Positions 726 to 19,790 of a stretch of DNA of 24,616 nucleotides are shown here, one piece after another. Each line of letters begins with the position of its first letter. The stretch's first letter is position 1. The translations under genes were made by a program, and so were the position numbers. The notes under the pieces were generated by a model, which was given only the letters and a program-made list of their open reading frames with translations, had not been told where the DNA came from and ran no database searches. This stretch comes from Halomonas halophila (GTDB lineage Bacteria > Pseudomonadota > Gammaproteobacteria > Pseudomonadales > Halomonadaceae), in assembly GCA_002433675.1 (NCBI GenBank), contig DJIP01000117.1, positions 2,700 to 27,315 of the forward strand, given 5' to 3'.

Positions 726-861
726 GCAGATGGCTCAGCATCTTTACGCGGTGGACGCCGGACTCACTGCATAGCGGGGCAATCCAGAGGCGAGGGCCGT
801 CCAGGCCCCAAACGTTTACTGTTTCGACTATCCCGTCGAATGTTGTTATCGCCACCTCGTT

Positions 862-868
862 CTATACT
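862..868 (+). promoter_or_regulatory. Candidate -10 element (C-TATACT) for the diguanylate cyclase gene
   Basis: The hexamer TATACT at 863-868, preceded by C, matches a sigma-70/sigma-S -10 box. No good -35 is seen at 16-18 bases upstream. A transcript starting near 875 would leave a leader of about 20 bases before the ATG at 897, so this element also argues against translation starting at 840. Confidence 0.35.
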
Positions 869-896
869 GGCCGAGTTGCCGTCCATAGGTCTCGCC

Positions 897-3191
897 ATGT
901 TTCGCTGTATCACGCTTCTTGTACTCGCCCTGCTCTGGCTGCCCGGCAGTCAGGTACTGGCTGGCGAGCGCGCGTTGAATGATGGCTGGGAGTATCGTTG
1001 GGGGGACTCGCCCCGCACCGCTGGCGGAGAGCTGGAATGGCTCGTCACCGGCGATGCGGCGTGGCACAAGCTCGATGGAATCGCTAACCCGCCAGGGCGT
1101 GACGGTCGCGACAGCCTCTGGCTGCGTCGGGAGCTGCCAGCCGGTGACTGGCTCCAGCCGGCCTTATTCATTTCAAGCCTTGATCTGGTGGCCGAAGCCT
1201 ACGTCGATGGACAACGCGTCTATCGCCACGGCCAGCTCGAAGGTCCGGACGCCGGGGCCTTCGCCGGCTGGACCTGGCACGCCATCGAACTGCCCTCGCC
1301 CACTCAGGGCAAGACCCTTTACCTGCGCCTGAAGTCGTCTTACAAGGACATCGGGCTATGGGGCAAGGTCGTGATCATGGAGCAGTCACGGATACTGCCC
1401 TCGATCCTCGAGGCCACCAAGGGCGAACTGGTGATAGCGCTTGTGTGTCTGATCGTCGCTGCCCTGGCGCTCGTGTTGATCCTGACCCAGCCCGAACGCT
1501 GGCGACTGGGCAGCCTCGGGCTCTTCTCGCTGGCCGTCGGTTTGATGGTGCTGGCCGAGAGCGACGCCAGCCAATTGATCGTGTTCGCGCCGCTGGCCTG
1601 GGACTATGTGGCCGCCATTGCCTATTTTTCGTTGCCGGTGGCCATGGCGCTGATCCTCGAGCACTGGTTTCCGCAAATCCCTCGTCGGGGAATGCGACGT
1701 CTGTGGCTAGGCTTGCTGGCCTACGCCACCGGCGCCCCTGTGCTGGCAATGCTGGACATCATATCGCTTCCGCCGACCTTTCCGTTGTTCGACCTGATAC
1801 TGCTCGGGGCGCTGACCTATATGGCACGCTGGCTGTTTCGCTATCGACGAGAGTTCGACAGCGACCAACGGCTGATCGTCGCGAGCTACGCCATCTTTGC
1901 TGCCATCGCCATCACCGACATGTTGGTGGCCCATAGTCTGGTGGGCTGGATAAGTGTACCGGTGCACCTTGGTGCCCTGGCCTTCATCGTCGCCATGATC
2001 GTCATCTCGACACGCCACTATGCTCGCTCACAACGCCAGTTGCTGCGACTCAACGATCACCTCGAGCAAGAGGTGGCCGAGCGTACCCGACAACTGGAAA
2101 GCCTCGCAGAGCAGGAGCGGCAACGTGCCCTTGTGCTGGCCACCGAGCACCACAAGACTCAGCGACTGGCCAGCCTGATCGACACGTTGCAGGCATGCAC
2201 CAGCCTCGAGGAAGCACTGTGCATGACCCAGCGGGCCATGCCAGAGATACTGGAACCGATGCAGGGTGCCTTCTACCGCCCTCAAGATCAGCCGGACAAC
2301 ATGACGCTGGAACTGTTCTGGCCCACCACCTATCGCCCGCCGGCTTGGCTGGACACCACCGCGATTCCGCCGCTTCGAACGCGCACGGAAGAGAGCCTGC
2401 CCGCCCTGGACGACCTGCTCACGATCTCCACCAGGAGGCCTCTCTCAGACGCTTCGTCCCCTTCTCGTGCCGAAAACCTGCCTCACTGGGTCTTTCCGCT
2501 GGACTTGACCGGTCCAGATCGCCAGCACCGTCGACTGGGCGTGATCTGCGTGGTGCCCGACGGGGCACTGGTCAAGCGCCCTCAATACTGGGATCGCACC
2601 CGCAGTTTCATCGAACTCGGCGTCAGTCGCCTGGCCCTGGTGCTGTCGAGTATTGCCCTGCAGGAGGAACTGTCGGCGCTATCCTATCGCGATGATCTGA
2701 CCGGGCTACACAATCGTCGCTACTTCGACGAGCTCTTTGCCCATGAGACGGCTATCTCGCTGCGCAAGAAAAGCCCCTTGGCGGTGGTGATTCTGGACAT
2801 CGACCACTTCAAGAAATTCAACGACCGCTATGGACATGCCGCTGGCGACACGGTGCTCGAAGGGGTCGGTAGAATGCTTGCCAACAGCTTCCGTGATATC
2901 GATGTGGTCTGTCGCTTTGGCGGAGAGGAGTTCGTGGTACTGCTGCCCGGCGCCGAGGCCGACGACGCCCACCACCGCATGCAGCGCATGTGCCACGCCC
3001 TGGCCAGCGCGAGCTTCCGCCACGAGGGCCAGAGCCTGGGCACGGTATCGGTATCCTGCGGCATCGCCAGCTTCCCGGCCACCAGCAACGACCCGAGCTG
3101 CCTGCTGACACTGGCAGACAGCGCCCTGTATCGGGCCAAGCACGCAGGGCGGGCGCGTATTGCACTCGCCACGCCGCACGAGAACGACTAG
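897..3191 (+). CDS. Membrane diguanylate cyclase with 7TMR-DISM sensor, GAF-like and GGDEF domains
   Basis: It is predicted to make c-di-GMP from two GTP in response to a periplasmic or membrane signal. From the chosen ATG (764 residues) there is a signal peptide (MFRCITLLVLALLWLPGSQ), then a periplasmic 7TMR-DISMED2-like domain (about residues 20-170), seven hydrophobic helices (about 175-380), a coiled coil rich in Glu, Arg and Gln, a degenerate GAF-like segment (LQACTSLEEAL onward) and a GGDEF domain. The active-site motif is GGEEF at residues 675-679. The sequence RDID sits five residues before it and matches the inhibitory I-site RxxD, so product inhibition is expected. The frame is open back to an ATG at 840, but that adds 19 residues before the signal peptide, has no ribosome site and contains a -10-like box. 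The ATG at 897 has only a weak AGGT upstream. Confidence 0.88.
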   Translation: MFRCITLLVLALLWLPGSQVLAGERALNDGWEYRWGDSPRTAGGELEWLVTGDAAWHKLDGIANPPGRDGRDSLWLRRELPAGDWLQPALFISSLDLVAEAYVDGQRVYRHGQLEGPDAGAFAGWTWHAIELPSPTQGKTLYLRLKSSYKDIGLWGKVVIMEQSRILPSILEATKGELVIALVCLIVAALALVLILTQPERWRLGSLGLFSLAVGLMVLAESDASQLIVFAPLAWDYVAAIAYFSLPVAMALILEHWFPQIPRRGMRRLWLGLLAYATGAPVLAMLDIISLPPTFPLFDLILLGALTYMARWLFRYRREFDSDQRLIVASYAIFAAIAITDMLVAHSLVGWISVPVHLGALAFIVAMIVISTRHYARSQRQLLRLNDHLEQEVAERTRQLESLAEQERQRALVLATEHHKTQRLASLIDTLQACTSLEEALCMTQRAMPEILEPMQGAFYRPQDQPDNMTLELFWPTTYRPPAWLDTTAIPPLRTRTEESLPALDDLLTISTRRPLSDASSPSRAENLPHWVFPLDLTGPDRQHRRLGVICVVPDGALVKRPQYWDRTRSFIELGVSRLALVLSSIALQEELSALSYRDDLTGLHNRRYFDELFAHETAISLRKKSPLAVVILDIDHFKKFNDRYGHAAGDTVLEGVGRMLANSFRDIDVVCRFGGEEFVVLLPGAEADDAHHRMQRMCHALASASFRHEGQSLGTVSVSCGIASFPATSNDPSCLLTLADSALYRAKHAGRARIALATPHEND

Positions 3192-4947: not shown

Positions 4948-5847
4948 ATGAAAGGACTCTCCACACCCTCGGCCCAGGGCGTCGCCTTTGCGCTGCTGGC
5001 TTATGGCACCTGGGGTGGATTCCCCCTTTTTTTCGCATTGTTCGACGGCGTAGGTGCACTCGAGATACTCGCCCATCGTGTCATCTGGTCGTGCCTGTTT
5101 CTGGCACTGGTGATAAGTCTGCTCAAGCGCTGGTCGGTCATCGCCAACATTCGCCAGGCACCTCGACAACTGCTGCCGGCGCTCGCCTGCGCGCTACTTA
5201 TCGGCGCCAACTGGGGCCTTTATATCTACTCGGTAGAGACCCATCGGGTGCTGCAGGCGAGCCTGGGCTATTTCATGACACCGCTGGTCAACGTGGCGCT
5301 GGGCGTGGTGGTGCTCAAGGAACGCGTCGCGCCGACCCAGCGCCTGGCCATTGGCCTTGCCCTCGGTGCCATCGCGCTGCAACTGTTGCAGCTGGGCACC
5401 TTGCCCTGGCTGAGCCTCTGCCTGGCAGTGTCCTTCGGCACTTACGGACTGCTGCGCAAGCAGCTTGCGCTGGACGGGCTGTCGGGCCTGTTCATCGAAA
5501 CGCTGCTGCTGCTTCCCCTGGCGCTGCTGCTGATACAACAGCTGCCGGTCAGCCACTTCGACGGAGCGCTATTCTTCACCGCCCCCTACAGCGCAGCGCT
5601 GCTGATGGCCTCCGGGGTGCTGACCGCGCTGCCGCTGCTGGCCTTTGCCGGCGCCGCGCGACGGCTGACGCTCGGCACTCTGGGATTTCTGATGTACATC
5701 AACCCGACGCTGCAGTTTCTGATTGCGTTATGGGTGTTCAACGAGCCCCTGGCGGTCGAGCAACTGACCACCTTCGTTCTCATCTGGATCGCGCTGGCGC
5801 TCTACTCCTGGTCGAGCCTGCGTCAGCAGCGCCGAGTACCCACCTGA
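4948..5847 (+). CDS. rarD: RarD family EamA-type permease
   Basis: This inner-membrane protein of 299 residues has about ten hydrophobic helices in two EamA/DMT repeats. RarD is annotated historically as a chloramphenicol-sensitivity protein, and its natural substrate is uncertain. The signature stretches are AYGTWGGFPLFF, HRVIWS, ANWGLYIYSVETHRVLQASLGYF and GFLMYINPTLQF, typical of RarD rather than of generic EamA exporters. The ATG is preceded at eight bases by GGGAA. The gene diverges from yafV across 185 bases. Its 3' end overlaps the convergent EAL gene by 25 bases, so both C-terminal tails are encoded by the same DNA. Confidence 0.9.
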   Translation: MKGLSTPSAQGVAFALLAYGTWGGFPLFFALFDGVGALEILAHRVIWSCLFLALVISLLKRWSVIANIRQAPRQLLPALACALLIGANWGLYIYSVETHRVLQASLGYFMTPLVNVALGVVVLKERVAPTQRLAIGLALGAIALQLLQLGTLPWLSLCLAVSFGTYGLLRKQLALDGLSGLFIETLLLLPLALLLIQQLPVSHFDGALFFTAPYSAALLMASGVLTALPLLAFAGAARRLTLGTLGFLMYINPTLQFLIALWVFNEPLAVEQLTTFVLIWIALALYSWSSLRQQRRVPT

Positions 5848-8324
5848 CGCAGTACCGTCGTCGGCATCGGGCCCGCTGGCTTCTCGCCATAGACTGCGAC
5901 CAGATCCTCCAGCTCCATCGGTGGCGCAAAGAAATAGCCCTGCCCTTCCTGGACCCCCAGGGTGATCAGCCAACTCGCGTCCTCGACGGTCTCGACGCCT
6001 TCCGCCACCACCGTCAGTTCCATGCGATGGCAGAGTCCCACCAGCGCCGCATAAGCCTGACGCGCCTGATCGAAACGCCGCGCGGCGTGGAGTAATGAAT
6101 AATCCAGCTTGATCGCCGCCAGGGGCAGGCGCTGAAGCAGGTTGAAGGCGGTGTAGCCGCTACCGAAGTCGTCCAGTGCGACGCCAATACCGCGTTCGTG
6201 GAGCCGCCTCATCTGTCGCTGAACCCGCTCGACGTCATCGACATGCTCGTGCTCCACCAGTTCGAGTGCCAGGCAGCGCGGAGGCAGCCGACGTCGCGCC
6301 AGTTCAGTCACCATGAAATCGGGGAAGTCATCGGCCACAAGCGTCGACAGGTGGACATTGACCGAGACGGTACCGAGCCAGGCCGCGCCTCGCAGTTCCA
6401 TCAGCCAGTCGAGGGTGCGGCCGATCACCCAACGGTCGAAACGCTCCGCCAGGCCGAGCATCAGAATGACCGGAAGAAACTCCGGTGGCGGAATATTGCC
6501 CGCGTCGGGATGACACCAGCGGATCAACACCTCGGCCCCGACCAGGGTTCTGCTCGAGGGCGCCATCTTGGGTTGGGCCACCAGACGCCATTGATTGCCG
6601 GGATTCTCGATCAGCAGACTGACCTGCCGACACAGCCAACGCAGCTGAGTCTCGTGATAGGGACCCGCCGCGGTCACCCTGAACACCGGACGTACCCAAC
6701 CTTCGCTTTCCAGCCGCTGCACTCCCTCTTCCAGCGAAGCCAGACAGTTGCTCAGGTCGGTGGAATGGCCGGGCACCACCACCACACTGGCATGCCAGCG
6801 CAGGACCCGTGCGCTGTCGCGTTGCTGAAACTGCCCCACCAGGGCCAGGTAGCTATCGAGCTGGGATTCCACGTCGGGTCCGTGGGCCTGGGCAGGGACC
6901 ATGCCGATCAGCTGCTCTTCGCCTCCCAGATACAGCCGCCAGCCCTTGGGGAGATGCGCCTTGAAGACATCGATACTGATCCGCAGAAGACCCTCCAGGC
7001 TGCCGCTGCCGAAGCGCCTGCGATAGCTCCTGAGTTCGGGGGACACCAGCACGAACAGCCACTCCACCTCCTCGCATCGACTGCCTCGATAGTCGCTTTC
7101 CAGCGCCAGCCTCGTAGGCAGACCAAAACGCTGATCAACCATCAACTTGCGACGAAGACGGCGTGACCTGTTGCGCGCCACCAACAAGGCCCCCACGCCC
7201 AGCAGCGAACCTACCGCCACCACCGACACCCCGTACAGTGCCTGACGATACTCCCGCGCGACCTGCTCCAGCCGTCCGCGAACGCCGATCCACTGGAACG
7301 GGAGGTTGTCATGGCCGTCGAACAGACGGTACCAGCGGGCATCGATCAGGTGACGCTGGGCCATCACCGAGGAACTGGCCGGTACCAGGTCAAAGGCTGG
7401 CGTCAGCGCCAGTTCCACGGCGGCGTGGGCAAGGAAGTCGACATCGAGAATCGCCCCGCCGGCACAACCTATCGCCATCTGGAATTCGAAATGACAGAAC
7501 ACCGGATAGCCCTGGGCGGCTAGCGCTTCCAGTCGATGAGCGGTGCTTCCCGCCCCTTCGGACCAACCGGAGTCCTGCCCCCCTTGCATGTAGAGTCGAG
7601 TTCCCGGGGGACTTCGCGACAATCGCTCGATCACCGCCTCCGGGGTCCAGCCAGTGACCACGTCGACCAGGGTCACATCGGCGACACTGCCGATCACCTC
7701 CACCATGTCATCGACGACATTGAAGGCGTGTTCGGAGTCTTCGGCCAGCAGCATCAAAGGCACCGGTGAGCCAAAGGTTTCCACCAGCATATTGAGCGAC
7801 TGGGCCATGACCGGATAGGACTTGAGCAGTTTCACTCCAAACGCCTGGGCCTGCTCCCTGAAGCGGTCATCATTGAGGCCCAGCGCCACCACCTTGCGCG
7901 GCCAGGGGAGCTCGTCGCGAAACTCCAGGTAGAAGGCCATGGCGGGGTCATCGGCAATGATCAGACTGCCGCCGTCATTCAAGGTGCTTTCAGATAGCCG
8001 CTTGAACAGGGCCTCATGGGCCAGCGGCCGAGCCAGGCGCAGCGCATCGACATACTCGACCAACAGTTGACGGTCTGCGCTGGCTTCGTGACGAAAGCGC
8101 GCCTCGACACTGCTGACGACATCGTCATTCCACCGATACCCCTGGTGGTAAGAGGTCAATAGTGTCAGCGAAGCACCCTGCGACTCGTCCAGTTCATCAC
8201 CCGGTAGCGCCGCACAAGCGGCCATGGCCACCAGGCCAAAGGTGATCGCCACAAGTCTTCTGAGTATCGCCGGAAACAGCGACCCCAACCACGGAAGAGG
8301 GCGCAGCCTGAGCAGGATGTGCAT
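5823..8324 (-). CDS. Periplasmic-sensor protein with degenerate GGDEF and EAL domain (likely c-di-GMP phosphodiesterase)
   Basis: It is predicted to hydrolyse c-di-GMP. The 833-residue product has an N-terminal hydrophobic signal or anchor (about residues 20-40). A periplasmic region resembling substrate-binding-protein-like sensor domains follows (LTSYHQGYRWND; about 50-345), and one membrane helix lies at about 363-385. Next comes a degenerate GGDEF domain (FGLPTRLALESD, then GGEEQ at 467-471) and a C-terminal EAL domain. In the EAL domain the key residues appear kept: E598 in AEVL, N656 in SVNV, ELVE (688-691), DDFGSGY (from 718), K739, AEGVE (774-778) and Q795. The frame opens at a GTG (8339), but the ATG at 8324 has GGGAG eight bases upstream and is preferred. 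That ribosome site lies in a small palindrome (8332-8345) that could hide it. Confidence 0.88.
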   Translation of the reverse strand: MHILLRLRPLPWLGSLFPAILRRLVAITFGLVAMAACAALPGDELDESQGASLTLLTSYHQGYRWNDDVVSSVEARFRHEASADRQLLVEYVDALRLARPLAHEALFKRLSESTLNDGGSLIIADDPAMAFYLEFRDELPWPRKVVALGLNDDRFREQAQAFGVKLLKSYPVMAQSLNMLVETFGSPVPLMLLAEDSEHAFNVVDDMVEVIGSVADVTLVDVVTGWTPEAVIERLSRSPPGTRLYMQGGQDSGWSEGAGSTAHRLEALAAQGYPVFCHFEFQMAIGCAGGAILDVDFLAHAAVELALTPAFDLVPASSSVMAQRHLIDARWYRLFDGHDNLPFQWIGVRGRLEQVAREYRQALYGVSVVAVGSLLGVGALLVARNRSRRLRRKLMVDQRFGLPTRLALESDYRGSRCEEVEWLFVLVSPELRSYRRRFGSGSLEGLLRISIDVFKAHLPKGWRLYLGGEEQLIGMVPAQAHGPDVESQLDSYLALVGQFQQRDSARVLRWHASVVVVPGHSTDLSNCLASLEEGVQRLESEGWVRPVFRVTAAGPYHETQLRWLCRQVSLLIENPGNQWRLVAQPKMAPSSRTLVGAEVLIRWCHPDAGNIPPPEFLPVILMLGLAERFDRWVIGRTLDWLMELRGAAWLGTVSVNVHLSTLVADDFPDFMVTELARRRLPPRCLALELVEHEHVDDVERVQRQMRRLHERGIGVALDDFGSGYTAFNLLQRLPLAAIKLDYSLLHAARRFDQARQAYAALVGLCHRMELTVVAEGVETVEDASWLITLGVQEGQGYFFAPPMELEDLVAVYGEKPAGPMPTTVLRQVGTRRC

Positions 8325-8442
8325 GAACAAGGCTCCCACGGGAGCGTCTGCTGGCGACGTTCGATCAAGCGCTGTTTTTCGCCCCGTAGATGAAGCCTAG
8401 AAGTCGCCGATGCTCCCCTCGCGCCCCCTTTGGAGGTAGCAA

Positions 8443-12689: not shown

Positions 12690-12902
12690 ATGCCCCATCT
12701 ACTCAGATTCTCGCGGGACCTGGAGGCACGCCTGGATTTCCTGGCAGAAAAGACCGGCCTGTCCAAGGCGGCGCTGATCGAACGTCTGGTCAGCGAAGGC
12801 GCCGAGGTCCTCGAAGCCGAGCTGGCCCACGAAGGCGCCGGCAGCCAGCGTGCGGAGCGCTCCATCGATCAGCTGCTGCGCGAAAGCGGGCTCGGCGCCT
12901 GA
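12690..12902 (+). CDS. Small ribbon-helix-helix DNA-binding protein (CopG/Arc-like)
   Basis: This 70-residue protein opens with a short strand (HLLRFSRDLEARLDFLA), followed by EKTGLSKAALIERLVSEGAEVLEAEL. That is the strand-helix-helix pattern of CopG/Arc/MetJ-fold proteins with the usual turn TGLSKAAL. The start is secure: GGAGG (12679-12683) lies six bases before the ATG. The tail is acidic and then basic, and no enzymatic domain is present. Many such proteins are antitoxins, but no toxin-sized frame follows. The next gene is the convergent kinase 74 bases away. A stand-alone regulator is therefore likelier than a toxin-antitoxin pair. Its targets are unknown. Confidence 0.7.
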   Translation: MPHLLRFSRDLEARLDFLAEKTGLSKAALIERLVSEGAEVLEAELAHEGAGSQRAERSIDQLLRESGLGA

Positions 12903-12976
12903 ACGCTCACCACCCGGCCGTCTATCAGCGGAAAGGTCATCGGCACGCTGGAAGGGTCAACGCGTCGAGCGTCTGG

Positions 12977-14878
12977 CTAGCGCTGCGCCTGGTGCAAACC
13001 TTCTCGTAGCGCTTCTGGCTCCCCCGCAGACTGCTCGGACATCGCCCTTGCCAGCGCCGCTCTGGGGTCCCTGGGATAGTAGCGTTCCGGCTGACGCGCC
13101 ACGTGGGGAAAGAACCGCGTGTCCTTGTAGGGCATCTTCATGAAGCCGGAGATACCGAGCCCCTCGATCAGTTTCACCGCATCGACAATGTCCTCGAGGC
13201 AGTCATGAAACTCCTGCTCCCTTGAAGGATCGAGCAGCCGATAGTGGTGGTGAATCTTGAGGTGTGACGGCAGCACCTCGAAGATGATCATGCCGGTGTG
13301 GTGGATATCATTGAGCGCCTGCAACGAGGTGATGATCGCCTCCGGCAGTACCAGCAGCTCCTCCGGGTCGGGACCGTCCTCGAAATAGCTGTGCAGACGG
13401 GAGCGATCCTCCAGTTCCGGCACCGCGCTGACCTCATAGGACAGTTTCAGCGACGGATCGACCACGAAGGGGTGATCCGGACTGGTCCGTTCCAGGTGCA
13501 GGGTATCGCGGGCATTGAACAGGCAGCTCTTGAAGATGCCCTGCCGATGGATCGCCCGCGCCAGGGTCACCATGTTGTTGACCGCCGCCACGAAGGCTCG
13601 CTTGAGCCCTGCGTCGTGCAGATTCAATGACGAGTCGATATAGACGCCGTCGGCCTCCCAGCGCACCGCCAGCCCCCCGACCACCGGATACTTGCCGAGC
13701 CGGCTGACCGCGGCCAGAAAGGCCTTTTCGGTCTCCCCCATCCCCTGCATGAAGTTGCGATAGTAGCGATCCAGCTGGACATCGTTGACGTCGTTGAGCG
13801 TCTCCTCCACTCCCTCTTCCCTCAGGAATGCCTTGCGCGAGCTGTACACCACGGTATCGATCTCGCGACTCAGCGCACGGCTCCACACCGGCACCTGTGC
13901 CACTTCCTGGGGCCGTGGCAAATCGAGCATCACCAACCGTCCCAGACGCGGCATTTCTGTAATGAAGTGGTCGCCGGCCTTTAACCGCACTTCGGGGTCG
14001 GGATCGAGCATCCCGTCCAGGGTCCTGGCAAACTCCATCGGCAGACCCAGCGAGGTGGCGGGAATGGCGCGATGTCCAAAACGGCAGGACTGCGCCGAGG
14101 CCAGCGCATAGAGAGTCCCGGCAACGCCCTGCTCGTCGAAGCGCGGTGATGACAGCGCCCCTCCAAGCTGGTCCTCGCCGATAAAATAAACATCACCGAG
14201 CCTGGCATTAGTCTGCTGCAGATTATCGGACATCAGCTCCATCACGTTGGCGGTGACGAACTGCAGCCGTGCATCGAGCTGTGCAAATACCGACGACCCC
14301 CAGTCGATCAGCGCTACCGTTTCATCGCGGGCGTCAAAGACCAGATTCGACGGTTTGATATCGCCATGGACCACGGGCTTTCTCGGGGCGCCGGCGGGCG
14401 TGGTTTCACGCCGGAGTTCACGCAGGATGTCGGCCAGTTGGGTGGCGATATGCACCACCAGTCGCGGTGACAGCCGACCCTGACGCAGCGATACCTCCTC
14501 CAGATTGAGCCCCGGAGCCCGCTCCATCACCAGAATCGACTGGTGGCGCACCCGTTGATAGGCGACCAGCGCCGGCACTCGGGGATGCACCACCTGCTCG
14601 AGCATGAAGGCCTCTTCCTCGAGGCGATCCTGCAGGTGCTGCGGTAACGTGACTCGGCTGAACTTGAAGACGTGATGGCGATTGTCGGGGCTGACCCCGG
14701 CAAACACGAAACCGTAGGCGCCCTTGCCAACCAGCTCGATCCGCCGATACCCCAGCTGCTCGAGCTGGGTACGACACAGCGCGACCCACTCCTTGAGCTT
14801 GCGCGCGTCGTCCTGGCTGAGCAGATAGATCGACTGATCTTCCGGGATGTAGAACTGCTGCAACGGGGCCTGGGCCAT
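12977..14878 (-). CDS. Hanks-type Ser/Thr protein kinase in the branched-chain dehydrogenase operon
   Basis: This is a soluble eukaryotic-like kinase of 633 residues with no membrane helix or signal peptide. Visible motifs are the glycine loop GKGAYG (51-56), the ATP-anchoring lysine K72 (VFKFS), the catalytic loop HGDIKPSN (171-178, with HGD in place of HRD) and the metal-binding DWG (192-194, in place of DFG). All residues needed for phosphotransfer are therefore present. The C-terminal half (about residues 325-633) is a domain I do not recognise, without PASTA, WD or TPR repeats. The frame is open to 15025, but that would overlap the E2 gene. The ATG at 14878 has GGAGGAG about six bases upstream and is preferred. 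The gene starts 64 bases after the E2 stop, in the same direction. A role in controlling the dehydrogenase is inferred from position only. Confidence 0.85.
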   Translation of the reverse strand: MAQAPLQQFYIPEDQSIYLLSQDDARKLKEWVALCRTQLEQLGYRRIELVGKGAYGFVFAGVSPDNRHHVFKFSRVTLPQHLQDRLEEEAFMLEQVVHPRVPALVAYQRVRHQSILVMERAPGLNLEEVSLRQGRLSPRLVVHIATQLADILRELRRETTPAGAPRKPVVHGDIKPSNLVFDARDETVALIDWGSSVFAQLDARLQFVTANVMELMSDNLQQTNARLGDVYFIGEDQLGGALSSPRFDEQGVAGTLYALASAQSCRFGHRAIPATSLGLPMEFARTLDGMLDPDPEVRLKAGDHFITEMPRLGRLVMLDLPRPQEVAQVPVWSRALSREIDTVVYSSRKAFLREEGVEETLNDVNDVQLDRYYRNFMQGMGETEKAFLAAVSRLGKYPVVGGLAVRWEADGVYIDSSLNLHDAGLKRAFVAAVNNMVTLARAIHRQGIFKSCLFNARDTLHLERTSPDHPFVVDPSLKLSYEVSAVPELEDRSRLHSYFEDGPDPEELLVLPEAIITSLQALNDIHHTGMIIFEVLPSHLKIHHHYRLLDPSREQEFHDCLEDIVDAVKLIEGLGISGFMKMPYKDTRFFPHVARQPERYYPRDPRAALARAMSEQSAGEPEALREGLHQAQR

Positions 14879-14903
14879 GACGGTCTCCTCCACCGATACA
14901 CGA

Positions 14904-14937
14904 TGCCACGGCGGCGCCTCGGGCGCACGCCGTGGCA
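14904..14937 (-). other. Strong intercistronic hairpin between the E2 and kinase genes
   Basis: The outer arms 14904-14913 and 14928-14937 pair perfectly over ten bases. The inner arms 14914-14918 and 14922-14926 pair over five, with one unpaired base at 14927 and a three-base loop. The hairpin starts just after the E2 stop and ends before the kinase ribosome site (about 14885-14891). There is no T-run, so an mRNA-stabilising or processing element, or a partial terminator, is more likely than a full intrinsic terminator. Confidence 0.6.
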
Positions 14938-14942
14938 AGCGT

Positions 14943-16625
14943 TCAGGACAGGTGAAGCAGCATGCTTTCAGGGTCCTCGAGATAGCCTTTCCAGGCGTTG
15001 CAGAAACGCGCGATGGTGCCACCATCCAGCAGGCGATGATCTCCGGCCCAGGTCACCGTCATGATGCCCCGACGTACGACCTGCCCTGCCTCATCGAAGC
15101 GGGGCAGCCATTGGGTCTTGCCGATGGCCACGATCGCCGACTCGGGGATATTGATGATGGGGGCGGCGTAGGTCCCGCCGAGGGCACCAATATTGGAGAT
15201 ACTGATGGTGCCTCCCTTGAGGTCGCTGGCAGCCACCCGCCCCTCGCGCGCAGCCTCGGTCAGGCGCTGTACCTCGGCGGCGATCTCGAGCAGGCTGAGG
15301 CGCTCACAGCCCTTGATATTGGGCACCATCAGTCCGGCCTTGCCGTCCACCGCCATGCCCACGTTGCAGTGAGGTGGATAGTGGATTTCGGTGGCCTCGT
15401 CATTGAGACGCGCATTGACCAGGGGATATTGGTCGAGGGCCAGCGCCAGCGCCTTGATGAAAAACGGCATCAAGGTGAGCTTGACGTCCCGGGCTTCAGC
15501 CTGGGGCTTGAGGCGACCGCGCAAGGCCAGCAGATCGGTAACGTCGATCTCTTCACCGTACTGGAAGTGCGGCACGCTGCTGGCCGCCGCTACCATCTGG
15601 CGCGCCATGGCCGCCCGGACCCCGCGCAGCGGCTCCACCCGCACCTCACCCTCGTCACGCCCTGCTCCAGCGGTGCCGGCGAGAGAGCCCGCCCCTGCTG
15701 ACTCGGACCCGGAATCGGCCGCGGAAGCGTCACCGCTGCCTTGCGTGCCATCCAGAAAGCTCAACACGTCTTCCTTCAACACTCGGCCCTGGCGACCGCT
15801 GCCGGGAATGTCCTCGAGTCGAAGCTGGTGTTCCCTGATCAGTCGACGCACCGCCGGGCTTGCCGGGATTCGCCCGTAGGGCCCCTTGCCACCCTCGGGC
15901 GCTGCCTTGGGCGCTGGAGGGTCGCTCTTGCGAGGTGCAGACCTCTCGACCGACGGCTCCTGCGTCACCCCGCCAGGGTCGACAGTACCCGCAGCCTGGT
16001 AGGCAAACAGCGGCGCATGGACCTTGGCCATTTCGCCCTTGGCCACATACAGCTCGGCAACGATCCCGTCCTCCGGTGCAGTGATCTCGACCATGGCCTT
16101 GTCGGTCATGACATCGACCAGTCGCTGGTCTTCGCTGATCTCGTCACCCTGGGCCACGTGCCATTCGACGATCTCGCACTCGACGATGCCCTCACCGATA
16201 TCGGGCAGAATAAAGTCCACCCGTCGACCCGCACCACCCTTTTCGCTGGAACTCGATGGCGGCTTCTGGGCAGGCGGCGCTTGCGCCGGAGCCTTGCCTT
16301 CGCTTTCAGCCGGACCCTCATCACGCGGGGGCTCTCCGCCCTGACCATCGCCGCCCTGACCATCGCCGCCCTGACCATCGCCACCCTGATGCTCGCCACG
16401 ATAGGCAAATAAGGGCGCATGGACCCGAGCCATCTCACCCTTGGCCACGTGCAGCCTGGTAACGATACCGGCCTCCGGGGCGGTGATCTCCACCAGCGCC
16501 TTGTCCGTCATCACCTCGACCACAGGCTGGTCTTCGGCGATGGTGTCACCTTCGGCAATCTTCCATTCCATCACCTCACACTCGACGATGCCCTCGCCGA
16601 TGTCAGGCAGCTTGAACTCTGTCAT
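14943..16625 (-). CDS. bkdB: Dihydrolipoyl acyltransferase E2 of branched-chain 2-oxoacid dehydrogenase, two lipoyl domains
   Basis: This is the core of the complex: it receives the acyl group from E1 on lipoyl-lysine and passes it to CoA. The 560 residues comprise lipoyl domain 1 (about 1-75, K42 in TDKA), a low-complexity linker with GGDGQ repeats and lipoyl domain 2 (about 135-210, K176 in TDKA). A peripheral-subunit binding domain (about 253-291, IPASPAVRRLIREH) and the catalytic domain (about 325-560) follow, the latter with DHRLLDGG giving H530 and D534. Both lipoyl domains open with LPDIGEGIVECE, typical of gammaproteobacterial BCKDH E2 rather than PDH E2. Two lipoyl domains are more than the single one I recall for BCKDH E2. 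GGGAG lies seven bases before the ATG, which follows the E1beta stop by 21 bases. No E3 gene is present in the window. Confidence 0.93.
   Translation of the reverse strand: MTEFKLPDIGEGIVECEVMEWKIAEGDTIAEDQPVVEVMTDKALVEITAPEAGIVTRLHVAKGEMARVHAPLFAYRGEHQGGDGQGGDGQGGDGQGGEPPRDEGPAESEGKAPAQAPPAQKPPSSSSEKGGAGRRVDFILPDIGEGIVECEIVEWHVAQGDEISEDQRLVDVMTDKAMVEITAPEDGIVAELYVAKGEMAKVHAPLFAYQAAGTVDPGGVTQEPSVERSAPRKSDPPAPKAAPEGGKGPYGRIPASPAVRRLIREHQLRLEDIPGSGRQGRVLKEDVLSFLDGTQGSGDASAADSGSESAGAGSLAGTAGAGRDEGEVRVEPLRGVRAAMARQMVAAASSVPHFQYGEEIDVTDLLALRGRLKPQAEARDVKLTLMPFFIKALALALDQYPLVNARLNDEATEIHYPPHCNVGMAVDGKAGLMVPNIKGCERLSLLEIAAEVQRLTEAAREGRVAASDLKGGTISISNIGALGGTYAAPIINIPESAIVAIGKTQWLPRFDEAGQVVRRGIMTVTWAGDHRLLDGGTIARFCNAWKGYLEDPESMLLHLS
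16338..16382 (-). repeat. Three perfect 15-base tandem repeats in the E2 gene (GGDGQ linker)
   Basis: On the plus strand the unit gccctgaccatcgcc occurs at 16338-16352, 16353-16367 and 16368-16382, with a degenerate fourth copy next to it. It codes for GGDGQ units in the flexible linker after the first lipoyl domain. Copy number could change by slippage without breaking the frame. Confidence 0.85.
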
Positions 16626-16646
16626 GTCTTGGCTCCCGGCGCCGTC

Positions 16647-17624
16647 TCAGTAGTGGAGTGAGGTCTTGATGGCCTCGTAGATCTTCAGATGGTCGGGCAG
16701 ATACTCCTTCTCCAGCGTCAGCGGAAAAGGGGTATCGATGCCGGTCACCCGCTGGATCGGCGACTCCAGGTAAAGAAAGCAGCGCTCCTGGATGGCGGCG
16801 GCGACCTCTCCGGCGAAGCCCCCCGTGCGGGGCGCCTCATGGGTGATGACCAGTCGACCTGTCTTCAGTACCGACTCGGCGACGGTATCCTCGTCCCATG
16901 GCAGGATGCTGCGCAGATCGATCACTTCGCAGGACACACCGTCCTTTTCTGCCATCTCCACCGCCCGATCGATCACCTCCATCTGGGCGCCCCAACCCAA
17001 TAGCGTGATATCGGCGCCTTCCTTGGTTACCTCCGCTTCTCCCAGGGGTAGCTGGTAATCCTCTTCCGGGACCTCGCCGGTGGAGGCGCGATAGAGTCGC
17101 TTCGGTTCGAAGAACAGCACCGGATCAGGGTCACGAATGGCGGCCAGCAACAGCCCCTTGGCCTCGTAGGGATTGCGCGGCACCACGATCTTGAGGCCCG
17201 GGGTGTGGGCGAAATAGGCCTCGGGTGACTGGGAGTGATAGAGGCCACCGGAAATACCGCCGCCGTAGGGCGCCCGGATGGTCAGTCCACCGACGTTGAA
17301 CAGATCACCGGAGCGGTAGCGGAACTTGGCGGTCTCGTTGACGATCTGGTCGAAGGCCGGAAAGATGTAGTCGGCGAACTGGATCTCCGCTACCGGCACC
17401 GATCCCTGGGCCGCCAGTCCATTGGCGAAGCCGATGATCCCCTGCTCCACCAATGGCGTGTTGAAGCAGCGCGCCTTGCCGTACTTTTCCTGAAGGTGGC
17501 TGGTCGCGCGGAAGACGCCACCGAAGCCCCCCACGTCCTCACCAAAGCACAGCACCTTGTCGTCTTCGGCCATGGCGATGTCCAGCGCCTGGTTGATGGC
17601 CTGCAGCATATTGATGGTCGGCAT
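16647..17624 (-). CDS. bkdA2: Branched-chain 2-oxoacid dehydrogenase E1 component, beta subunit
   Basis: This is the beta chain of the heterotetrameric thiamine-diphosphate E1, which decarboxylates the 2-oxo acids of valine, leucine and isoleucine. The 325 residues show the transketolase pyrimidine-binding part ([52 protein letters not shown]) and the C-terminal transketolase part ([39 protein letters not shown]). FGGVFRAT and [23 protein letters not shown] segments favour BCKDH over PDH. The frame is open upstream to 17654, but the ATG at 17624 fits the family N-terminus ([14 protein letters not shown]). That ATG is one base after the E1alpha stop and has GGAGGGG in the end of E1alpha as ribosome site, so the two chains are probably made in equal amounts. 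Confidence 0.94.
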
Positions 17625-17625
17625 C

Positions 17626-18834
17626 TCAGTCCCCTCCCTGGTCGGCATCGCCATGGCTTAACGCCGGGTCAAGCGACCTGGCCCCGCGCGGATAGGCCTC
17701 CGGGTAGCGCCGAACATGCTGTTTGAGGGCATCGAGCTGATGCTGCAGCGCAGGCGTCACGTCGGCATAGACGTCGGTGACCATGGTATCGATCGCCGGA
17801 GGTGGGCGCTTCTCGGCACGTTTCATGGTTTCCAGCACTTCGCGACGCAATTCATCCTGTAGCGCCTTTTCCTCGTCTTCACTCCACCAGCCGTGGGTCT
17901 CGAGCCACAGCTGCATGCGACGGATCGGGTCCTTGGCCCGCCAGGCATCCTCTTCCTTGCGCGAACGATAGCCCGAGGGGTCATCGGAAGAGCTGTGAGC
18001 CGCCAGACGGTAGGTCATGGCCTCGATCAGTACGGGCTTGTTCTCTTCCACCGCCAGACGCCGCGCCTTCTCAGTGGCCCGATAGACCGCCAGCACGTCG
18101 TTGCCGTCGACGCGGATCACGTGCATGCGATATCCCAGCGCCCTGGGCGCCACGCCATCTGCAGCGAACTGCTCCACCGACGGCGTGGAAATGGCGTAGC
18201 CATTGTTGCGACAGAAGAAGATCACCGGCGCCTCGTGCACCGCCGCCATGTTGAGCGCCGCATGGAAGTCGCCCTCGGAGGCCGCGCCCTCGCCAAAGTA
18301 GACGATGGTGCAGAGGCCTTCGCCGGCCAGCTTCTGGCCATAGGCATAGCCGGTGGCCTGGGGAATCTGTGTCGCCAGCGGTGAGGAAATGGTCATGTAG
18401 TGCAGCTTGCGCGACCCGTAGTGGATCGGCATCTGCCGGCCCTTGCCGTAGTCAAGTTCATTGCCGAACAACTGGTTCATGAACTCGTCGAAGCTGAAGC
18501 CGCGATAGGCCAAGGCGCCCTGCTCACGGTACTGGGCCATGATCATGTCGGCGTCATCCAGGGCGGCGGCGCTGCCGATGACCGCCGCTTCCTCGCCGGT
18601 ACACTGCATGTAGAAGCTCAGGCGTCCCTGACGCTGTGCCGCCATCATGCGCTCGTCCAGCACCCGGGTCGCCACCATGGCGTGGTAGATTCTCAGCGCC
18701 TTGTCGCGCTCGAGATCCGGCCCTTCGGCACCGTCATGAAGGGTGCCATCCTGGGATAGCACCGCATAGGTGGGAATGCTGTATTCGTCGCCGGACAGGA
18801 AGTCCGGCCGATGGGTCTGTGCGGTCGTCGTCAT
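17626..18834 (-). CDS. bkdA1: Branched-chain 2-oxoacid dehydrogenase E1 component, alpha subunit
   Basis: This is the alpha chain of E1, carrying the thiamine-diphosphate motif GEGAASEGD to CRNNGYAIS (181-216). The 402 residues run strikingly close to the mitochondrial BCKDHA as I recall it: [61 protein letters not shown] and [13 protein letters not shown]. The loop [13 protein letters not shown] keeps serines at 281 and 291, which align with the two phosphorylated serines of the mammalian enzyme. Such serines are also found in bacterial E1 proteins without a known kinase. AAGGAA lies about nine bases before the ATG. It is the first gene of the operon, downstream of a LiuR-like palindrome. 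The C-terminal tail (after about residue 385) is polar and probably disordered. Confidence 0.95.
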
Positions 18835-18882
18835 CGTGCTGTTCCTTTGCCCCTTATGAGGGCAGTGTTGTCTTTATTCCCG

Positions 18883-18896
18883 CCCCTTGCCAGGGG
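18883..18896 (-). other. Small hairpin in the leader of the bkd operon
   Basis: Arms cccct (18883-18887) and agggg (18892-18896) pair around a four-base loop, about 50 bases before the E1alpha start. Too small to assign a function. Confidence 0.2.
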
Positions 18897-18925
18897 ATTG
18901 CCCGTGGCGGGACCAACGCACCCAC

Positions 18926-18941
18926 TTGACGTTAACGTAAA
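18926..18941 (-). promoter_or_regulatory. LiuR-like palindromic operator upstream of the bkd operon
   Basis: The 16-base site TTGACGTTAACGTAAA has a perfect ten-base core ACGTTAACGT (18929-18938) and only one mismatched pair in the whole palindrome. It resembles, from memory, the operator of LiuR, the MerR-family regulator of branched-chain amino acid breakdown in proteobacteria. On the minus strand a TTGTCT lies just upstream and could be the -35, with the palindrome filling a 19-base spacer as MerR-type promoters do. The -10 at that distance is poor. No liuR gene is in the window. Confidence 0.55.
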
Positions 18942-19010
18942 CTGAGACAACTGCCTAGCCGCGACTTTGGTCGAAAATGTCCTTCGTTTGAAGGGCAGGA
19001 AAGGAAGGAA

Positions 19011-19047
19011 AGGAAAAGCGTACCAGGCCCTGGGGTTCGGGCCCGGT
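19011..19047 (-). terminator. Likely intrinsic terminator of the osmoprotectant transporter operon
   Basis: Read on the minus strand, a nine-base stem (19039-19047 with 19022-19030, one G-U pair) closes an eight-base loop. A pyrimidine-rich tract with TTTT follows within about five bases. The hairpin begins nine bases after the stop of the last transporter gene and separates that operon from bkd in the same direction. Confidence 0.6.
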
Positions 19048-19055
19048 CGGCGAGA

Positions 19056-19790
19056 TCAGGCCCGGCGAGCCGGTGCCAGGCGCGCGAACACGCTGTCCAC
19101 CGTCAACGCCAGCAATGCAATCAACACCGCCCCTTGAACAATATAGGCGGTGTTGCCATTGACGATGCCGGAGATGATGGGATCCCCCAGGTTGCTCGAC
19201 CCTACGGTCGCGCCCAGGGCGGCGGTGGCGATGTTGATCGTCACCGAGGTACGGATACCGGCCAGGATCACCGGCGCCGCCAGCGGCAACTCCACCTGGC
19301 GCAGGATCTGGCCGCTGGTCATGCCCATGCCACGGGCCGCCTCGCGCACGGAGGGGTCGATACCCTCGATGCCGGCGAGTGTGTTGCGCACGATGGGCAG
19401 CAGTCCGTAAAGCAGCAGCGCCACCACGATAGGCAGGGTGCCGAAACCCAGTACCGGCACCGCCAGTGCCAGCACCGCCACCGGAGGGAACGTCTGCCCC
19501 AGCGATGCCACCTGGGCGACCAACGGCAGGAAGTCGCGTCCCCCCGGGCGGGTGACGGCAATGGCCCCGCCCACCCCGATCAAGGTGGCCAGCACGGCGG
19601 CAACGCTGACCACCAGCAGATGACGCCCCAACAACACCAGAAAGTCCACCCGCGAGAAGATCACGTCGCGGCTATCGGGCTCGACCCAGCGAAACAGCGC
19701 CTCCAGCTGCCCCATCAACAGACAACCCGCCAGCAGCAACAGTCCCCAGATGACGGGGACCCGCCAGCGTCCGGCCCAGTGATCAGTCAT
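19056..19790 (-). CDS. yehW: Osmoprotectant ABC transporter permease, YehW/OsmW-like
   Basis: One of the two membrane subunits of a compatible-solute importer (OsmU/YehZYXW type). The 244 residues give a leading helix and five or so further membrane helices, with the permease signature EAARGMGMTSGQILRQVELPLAAPVILAG contacting the ATPase. AVTRPGGRDFLPLV, ASLGQTFPPVAVLALAVPVLGFG, IRTSVTINIATA and NTAYIVQGA are close to E. coli YehW as recalled. It overlaps the ATPase gene by eight bases, so it is co-translated, and it is the last gene of the operon. In a halophile the likely cargo is glycine betaine or related solutes, but the E. coli homologue has low betaine affinity and the substrate is not settled by sequence. 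Confidence 0.9.
   Translation of the reverse strand: MTDHWAGRWRVPVIWGLLLLAGCLLMGQLEALFRWVEPDSRDVIFSRVDFLVLLGRHLLVVSVAAVLATLIGVGGAIAVTRPGGRDFLPLVAQVASLGQTFPPVAVLALAVPVLGFGTLPIVVALLLYGLLPIVRNTLAGIEGIDPSVREAARGMGMTSGQILRQVELPLAAPVILAGIRTSVTINIATAALGATVGSSNLGDPIISGIVNGNTAYIVQGAVLIALLALTVDSVFARLAPARRA

Follow-up and report, generated by a model that had tools for sequence, protein, structure and literature searches.

A Hanks-type protein kinase tied by position and phyletic pattern to a mitochondrial-type branched-chain 2-oxoacid dehydrogenase in Halomonas: a possible bacterial counterpart of BCKDK

What is the role of a protein kinase gene that directly follows the genes of a branched-chain 2-oxoacid dehydrogenase (BCKDH) complex? 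This question is raised by a stretch of 24,616 nucleotides from Halomonas halophila (assembly GCA_002433675.1, contig DJIP01000117.1, positions 2,700 to 27,315; hereafter the window), in which genes for E1alpha, E1beta, E2 and a Hanks-type kinase lie in this order on one strand (Table 1). Reading along the minus strand, 1 base separates E1alpha from E1beta, 21 bases separate E1beta from E2 and 64 bases separate E2 from the kinase, so the coordinates confirm the tight packing and common direction described in a first-pass annotation of this DNA. In mitochondria, BCKDK (BDK), a kinase of the GHKL fold, acts on BCKDH E1alpha, and phosphorylation is usually regarded as a mitochondrial way of controlling BCKDH. 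On balance, we lean towards the view that the product of the bacterial gene is an active Ser/Thr kinase, cytosolic and dedicated to the adjacent mitochondrial-type BCKDH, most likely phosphorylating one of its subunits and lowering flux.

Is the product likely to be a functional kinase? A Pfam scan matched it to PF00069 at 57.1 bits (cut-off 31.7), as expected of a Hanks-type Ser/Thr kinase, and its predicted fold is that of a protein kinase. The first-pass annotation had described a soluble kinase with GKGAYG, HGDIKPSN and DWG motifs, which was borne out: the motifs could be mapped (GKGAYGFVF at residues 51-59; Table 1 for the others) and hydropathy gave no membrane helix (highest 19-residue mean, 1.22). 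Nine residues were invariant in 36/36 aligned kinases (G51, G53, K72, E89, D173, K175, N178, D192 and G194), K72 and E89 being presumably the beta3 Lys and the alphaC Glu of the Hanks scheme by their position. Judged from this alignment, the catalytic residue set is intact. Other Pfam matches were to kinase-type families and to TCAD9, the latter at E 0.05, below its cut-off and inside the kinase domain; a GHKL-type domain found no match up to E 1. For the last 290 residues Pfam gave no match at all up to E 1, and the C-terminal region, modelled separately (pLDDT 74.5), gave no confident structural match. Identity as a MAD6 or PglW defence kinase was rejected, the NCBIfam scores (42.7 and 33.6 bits, respectively) falling below the cut-offs of 460 and 990 bits. 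At E 0.001, the host assembly (87% complete) contains no other match to PF00069. A kinase with 77% identity (P0097) carries the name of the brown alga Ectocarpus and probably comes from an associated bacterium.

Which dehydrogenase does the kinase accompany? Against solved structures, E1alpha scored 414 bits with 1dtw (human BCKDH alpha), 232 bits with 1um9 (annotated as 2-oxo acid dehydrogenase), 219 bits with 1qs0 (2-oxoisovalerate dehydrogenase, Pseudomonas putida) and 212 bits with the alpha subunit of pyruvate dehydrogenase (PDH), 1w85. E1beta ranked the same types in the same order (450, 366, 331 and 305 bits). Thus, going by its E1 subunits, the complex is a BCKDH of mitochondrial type, and PDH identity was rejected because both E1 subunits score higher against BCKDH. 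In Pfam, E2 shows two lipoyl stretches together with E3-binding and catalytic domains; among solved structures a PDH E2 comes first (271 bits) and a BCKDH E2 core third (239 bits), and E2 therefore does not settle the type of complex. The number of lipoyl domains seems unrelated to the kinase: some kinase-bearing relatives have an E2 shorter than the two-lipoyl protein of the window (for example 437 residues in L090, 11341-12654), and the kinase-less locus L171 encodes an E2 of 516 residues with two lipoyl-like repeats by eye. The E2 linker after the first lipoyl domain contains a short in-frame repeat of three GGDGQ units (window 16330-16400).

We then asked how closely the kinase is associated with BCKDH genes in other genomes. 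A scan of named genomes gave 237 relatives, of which the best 80 were retained, all but two titled with Halomonadaceae genera. Among these best 80, E2 was found upstream of the kinase on the same strand in every locus (80/80), and all three BCKDH subunits were visible within the retrieved stretch in 75. The gap between E2 and kinase was at most 150 bases in 65 loci, 151-400 bases in 8 and 725-7641 bases in 7. The nearest named record was Halomonas litopenaei (L002; 98% identity for the kinase, 99% for E1alpha). Two loci carry an insertion between E2 and kinase: an rlmJ-like gene (L088, 7832-8710), despite which the pair stays close, and an opposite-strand open reading frame (L089, 11357-12898), again with the pair remaining near. 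In a second family, that of genome G348, kinase and E1alpha were linked in 44 of 57 genomes, both on one strand and the kinase following E1alpha at a distance of 2.7 to 12.9 kb; the unlinked pairs were 27 to 577 kb apart (8 genomes) or on separate contigs (5 genomes).

Does the association go beyond gene order? The first-pass annotation had proposed surveying genomes for the kinase family directly after bkdB-like genes. A survey of presence and absence over three families found kinase and E1alpha together in 342 of 408 genomes, the kinase alone in 3, E1alpha alone in 14 and neither in 49. In the family of the host (n = 275; thresholds 1e-20 and 1e-120, with E1alpha called at 1e-120), both were present in 230 genomes, kinase only in 3, E1alpha only in none and neither in 42. 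The corresponding numbers were 57, 0, 7 and 7 in the family of G348 (n = 71), and a third family (n = 62), named here the Shewanella family from the 99% match of one kinase, had both in 55, kinase only in none and E1alpha only in 7, with E1alpha in 62/62. A sample of the class (n = 369) contained a full-length kinase in 5 genomes, and the identical 5 had E1alpha at 1e-90. In a sample of the phylum (n = 398), 31 genomes had E1alpha at 1e-80: nine of these had been tested before, all with kinase, and the kinase was found in 20 of the remaining 22 (E1alpha identity of at least 58%) and was missing in 2 (43-44%). One of these two low-identity E1alpha proteins was compared with the structures and proved to be of P. 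putida type, scoring 429 bits with that type and 255-256 bits with the human one. Conversely, a full-length kinase was found in 0/19 E1alpha-negative genomes taken from the listing of the phylum sample, 3 of which gave weak kinase matches. The pairing exceeds mere neighbourhood: across genomes the kinase depends one-way on mitochondrial-type BCKDH, and the reverse is not so. This pattern fits a regulator of BCKDH that is dedicated and dispensable.

The case for a dedicated regulator is thus that the kinase depends on one complex, is expendable to BCKDH, has retained its catalytic residues and, in two of the families surveyed, lies mostly near BCKDH genes. How could it act? Gene position, sequence identity and co-occurrence are observed; kinase activity, a BCKDH subunit as substrate, inhibition, a signal and reversal we infer. 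The kinase would phosphorylate a BCKDH subunit, E1alpha being the first candidate and E2 the second, and phosphorylation of E1 would cause loss of activity, by analogy with BCKDK and PDK. Flux through branched-chain amino acid catabolism would then fall when substrates must be spared. The unmatched C-terminal region may dock on the complex or sense a metabolite.

Several observations weigh against a kinase dedicated to BCKDH. (i) Linkage is absent in the Shewanella family, where 0/55 kinase/E1alpha pairs are linked as assembled (19 on one contig and at least 1.1 Mb apart, 36 on different contigs). The first-pass annotation had held that homologues lying mostly away from bkd genes would count against its idea; this is not what we see in the nearest loci of the host family (the best 80 of 237) or in the family of G348, and it is what we see in the Shewanella family, though every kinase-bearing genome there has BCKDH. 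(ii) The two genes also occur apart: two families include 14 genomes that keep BCKDH and lack the kinase, and the kinase occurs without E1alpha in three genomes of the host family, G555 (96% complete), G457 (85%) and G632 (74%). G555, without E1alpha at 1e-120, is a true exception or an assembly gap. In addition, one contig of G362 (99% complete) ends in a fragment of the kinase C-terminus, and E1alpha is missing from this genome at 1e-90; the fragment (L091, 8871-9233) adjoins an acyl-CoA dehydrogenase-like gene. (iii) Related genomes are not independent, so that far fewer events than genomes are involved and the raw counts carry no significance; a Fisher value, which disregards relatedness, was set aside. 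(iv) A PP2C_2 (PF13672) phosphatase, the one phosphatase family searched, was unmatched in the host assembly. (v) The phosphosite serines of E1alpha are present in genomes with and without the kinase. Both human E1alpha phosphosite serines align with serines in a loop of the host E1alpha (13 residues). Among 103 distinct E1alpha proteins (>55% identity), all 103 have Ser at site 1, and site 2 holds Ser (91), Thr (5), Leu (4) or Ala (3), so that 7 have neither Ser nor Thr there. In the kinase-less genomes of the Shewanella family, site 1 is still Ser in 7/7 and site 2 is Ser or Thr in 6/7 (Leu in one), and the P. putida-type E1alpha structure also keeps site 1. We therefore dropped phosphosite conservation as evidence for the kinase: serines kept with or without it give no support to phosphorylation, and the loop is, to judge from these alignments, conserved for reasons of its own. 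The 7 kinase-less genomes fall in two genera (g486 and g485; L169-L175) and, having kept mitochondrial-type BCKDH, form a natural comparison for kinase loss.

Could the kinase serve branched-chain amino acid metabolism by another route? It is possible, though less likely than direct control of BCKDH, that it functions in this catabolism or its regulation and targets another protein (a transcription regulator, an OdhI-like adaptor or a signalling partner), BCKDH being its genomic and physiological companion. The separation of kinase and BCKDH operon in the Shewanella family argues for such a target, as do the neighbours of the kinase at 7 unlinked loci that we inspected. There, L152 (937-7155), L155 (956-7023) and L153 (9631-13287) each carry, no more than about 5 kb from the kinase, a gene for a hybrid sensor histidine kinase (PAS, HisKA, HATPase_c, receiver), a further point against exclusive dedication to BCKDH, and in L152 and L155 a metzincin-like DUF4953/DUF5117 protein lies between the two. 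L156 has a histidine-kinase-like start, which was not scanned, and L154 and L157 show neither neighbour by eye. Since the histidine kinase recurs over two families, it lends some support to the idea that a further signalling system controls the kinase as well or is acted on by it. However, no hybrid histidine kinase is found beside the kinase of the window, and the kinase tracks BCKDH of mitochondrial type, being missing in the two genomes with low-identity E1alpha, of which the one compared was of P. putida type, although two genomes are too few for firmness. Genes for TPMT-family methyltransferases also occur near the unlinked kinase in L151 (5770-6426) and L156 (9946-10605), together with genes that by sequence look porin-, FxsA- and CutA-like.

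Alternatively, kinase and operon might have entered these lineages together and been retained for separate reasons, with no functional link. Kinase and E1alpha distances are indeed parallel (r 0.96 over 88 taxa, an exploratory value), a congruence that shared descent alone explains. We nevertheless regard co-inheritance as improbable, because the two genes are jointly absent in the host family (42/275) and the family of G348 (7/71), and because the two families with many unlinked pairs contain zero kinase-only genomes. Less probable still is a protein that is catalytically silent or an APH-type small-molecule kinase, with a role as scaffold or metabolite kinase. An APH match of 32.6 bits (cut-off 23.2), HGD where HRD is expected and the low confidence of the structure model at residues 209-244 point that way; against this, the catalytic residues are invariant, PF00069 outscores APH, PknB was nearest in a second comparison and the lysine of DxKPxN is present as in Ser/Thr kinases.

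Is there a precedent for the preferred reading, a kinase dedicated to BCKDH? The system resembles BCKDK in that the proposed target is the same type of enzyme, that the host E1alpha is nearer to human than to P. putida type and that the human phosphosite serines are present. It differs in the Hanks-type motifs and predicted fold, in the lack of a GHKL match noted above and in the unmatched C-terminal region. The kinase thus fails membership of the GHKL family, a failure that does not weaken the claim of a BCKDK-like function. Another relative in function may be AceK, the isocitrate dehydrogenase kinase/phosphatase, a kinase likewise devoted to a single metabolic enzyme of bacteria, placed where catabolic routes branch, and which differs in its target and in being bifunctional. 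Of the bacterial Hanks-type kinases, PknG carries TPR and rubredoxin-like domains, and the host kinase has no Pfam match of either type up to E 1. As described in PMC2784874, PknG of Corynebacterium controls 2-oxoglutarate dehydrogenase through the inhibitor OdhI, and thus shares with our proposal a bacterial Hanks-type kinase and a 2-oxoacid dehydrogenase complex as end target. It differs in working through OdhI, in the complex and in the phylum, and because it targets OdhI and not the dehydrogenase itself (PMC2784874), it also favours an indirect target for the host kinase. A classification from 2010 describes a Gammaproteobacteria-specific Ser/Thr kinase cluster 5 in Shewanella, Marinobacter, Pseudoalteromonas and Alteromonas, for which its available text gives no function; 'branched' and 'dehydrogenase' are absent from its main text (PMC2877116). 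Shewanella and Marinobacter recur by name among the relatives of the host kinase, and cluster 5 is probably the same family, a match of genera and not of compared members. Among the papers listed by searches of the open-licence literature, none ties such a kinase to bacterial BCKDH.

We conclude that the system is likely a convergent variant of the kinase control of 2-oxoacid dehydrogenases. The first-pass proposal of the same control by a different kinase fold is supported in part, by the complete Hanks set, the missing GHKL match and the tie to BCKDH seen in gene position and in the phyletic pattern of about 400 genomes; the human phosphosite serines add nothing to it. A more specific version seems doubtful to us: a Hanks-type BCKDH kinase convergent with BCKDK would act on the E1alpha phosphorylation loop, its C-terminal part having a new fold and either docking on E2 or sensing branched-chain oxoacids, with the host-type E1alpha as a bacterial cousin of mitochondrial E1alpha. 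Such a kinase may be bifunctional like AceK, because the PP2C_2 phosphatase was not found in the host assembly. If a Hanks-type kinase does control the mitochondrial-type BCKDH of Gammaproteobacteria, two unrelated kinases have independently become switches of one enzyme, and a kinase family without a function would gain one. The result would be relevant to modelling and engineering the way Halomonas and Shewanella metabolise branched-chain amino acids, and could be tested in culturable strains.

Table 1. Features of the BCKDH-kinase locus (window coordinates).
Feature	Position	Strand	Basis
E1alpha, branched-chain 2-oxoacid dehydrogenase, mitochondrial type, 402 aa	17626..18834	-	Pfam E1_dh 334 bits; top PDB match BCKDH alpha 1dtw_A, 414 bits
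E1beta, 325 aa	16647..17624	-	Transket_pyr and Transketolase_C; top PDB match BCKDH beta 1dtw_B, 450 bits
E2 acyltransferase, 560 aa	14943..16625	-	Pfam 2-oxoacid_dh, Biotin_lipoyl (2 stretches), E3_binding
Intergenic gap between E2 and kinase, 64 bases	14879..14942	-	GGAGG ribosome-binding-like site at 14887-14891
Kinase of Hanks type (633 aa), a proposed dedicated kinase of BCKDH	12977..14878	-	Pfam PF00069; alignment of 36 family members
Kinase domain, about residues 35-314	13937..14776	-	
Catalytic loop HGDIKPSN, kinase residues 171-178	14345..14368	-	D173, K175, N178 invariant in 36/36
DWG metal-binding motif, kinase residues 192-194	14297..14305	-	Invariant in 36/36
Kinase C-terminal region, residues 325-612, possible regulatory or docking module	13043..13906	-	Without Pfam match

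The kinase reading frame as listed begins at 15025 and overlaps E2. We placed the start at the ATG at 14878, 8 bases downstream of the GGAGG; this start is shared by most of the 35 aligned relatives, and in the records of a few the N-terminus is longer. In a consensus scan of 12700-19060, whose totals were no different from those of shuffled sequence, the gap before the kinase contained no terminator-like or promoter-like site, and the single terminator-like site on the minus strand (15468-15486) was inside E2. Elsewhere, the window encodes a GGDEF protein (840-3191) and an EAL protein (5823-8339).

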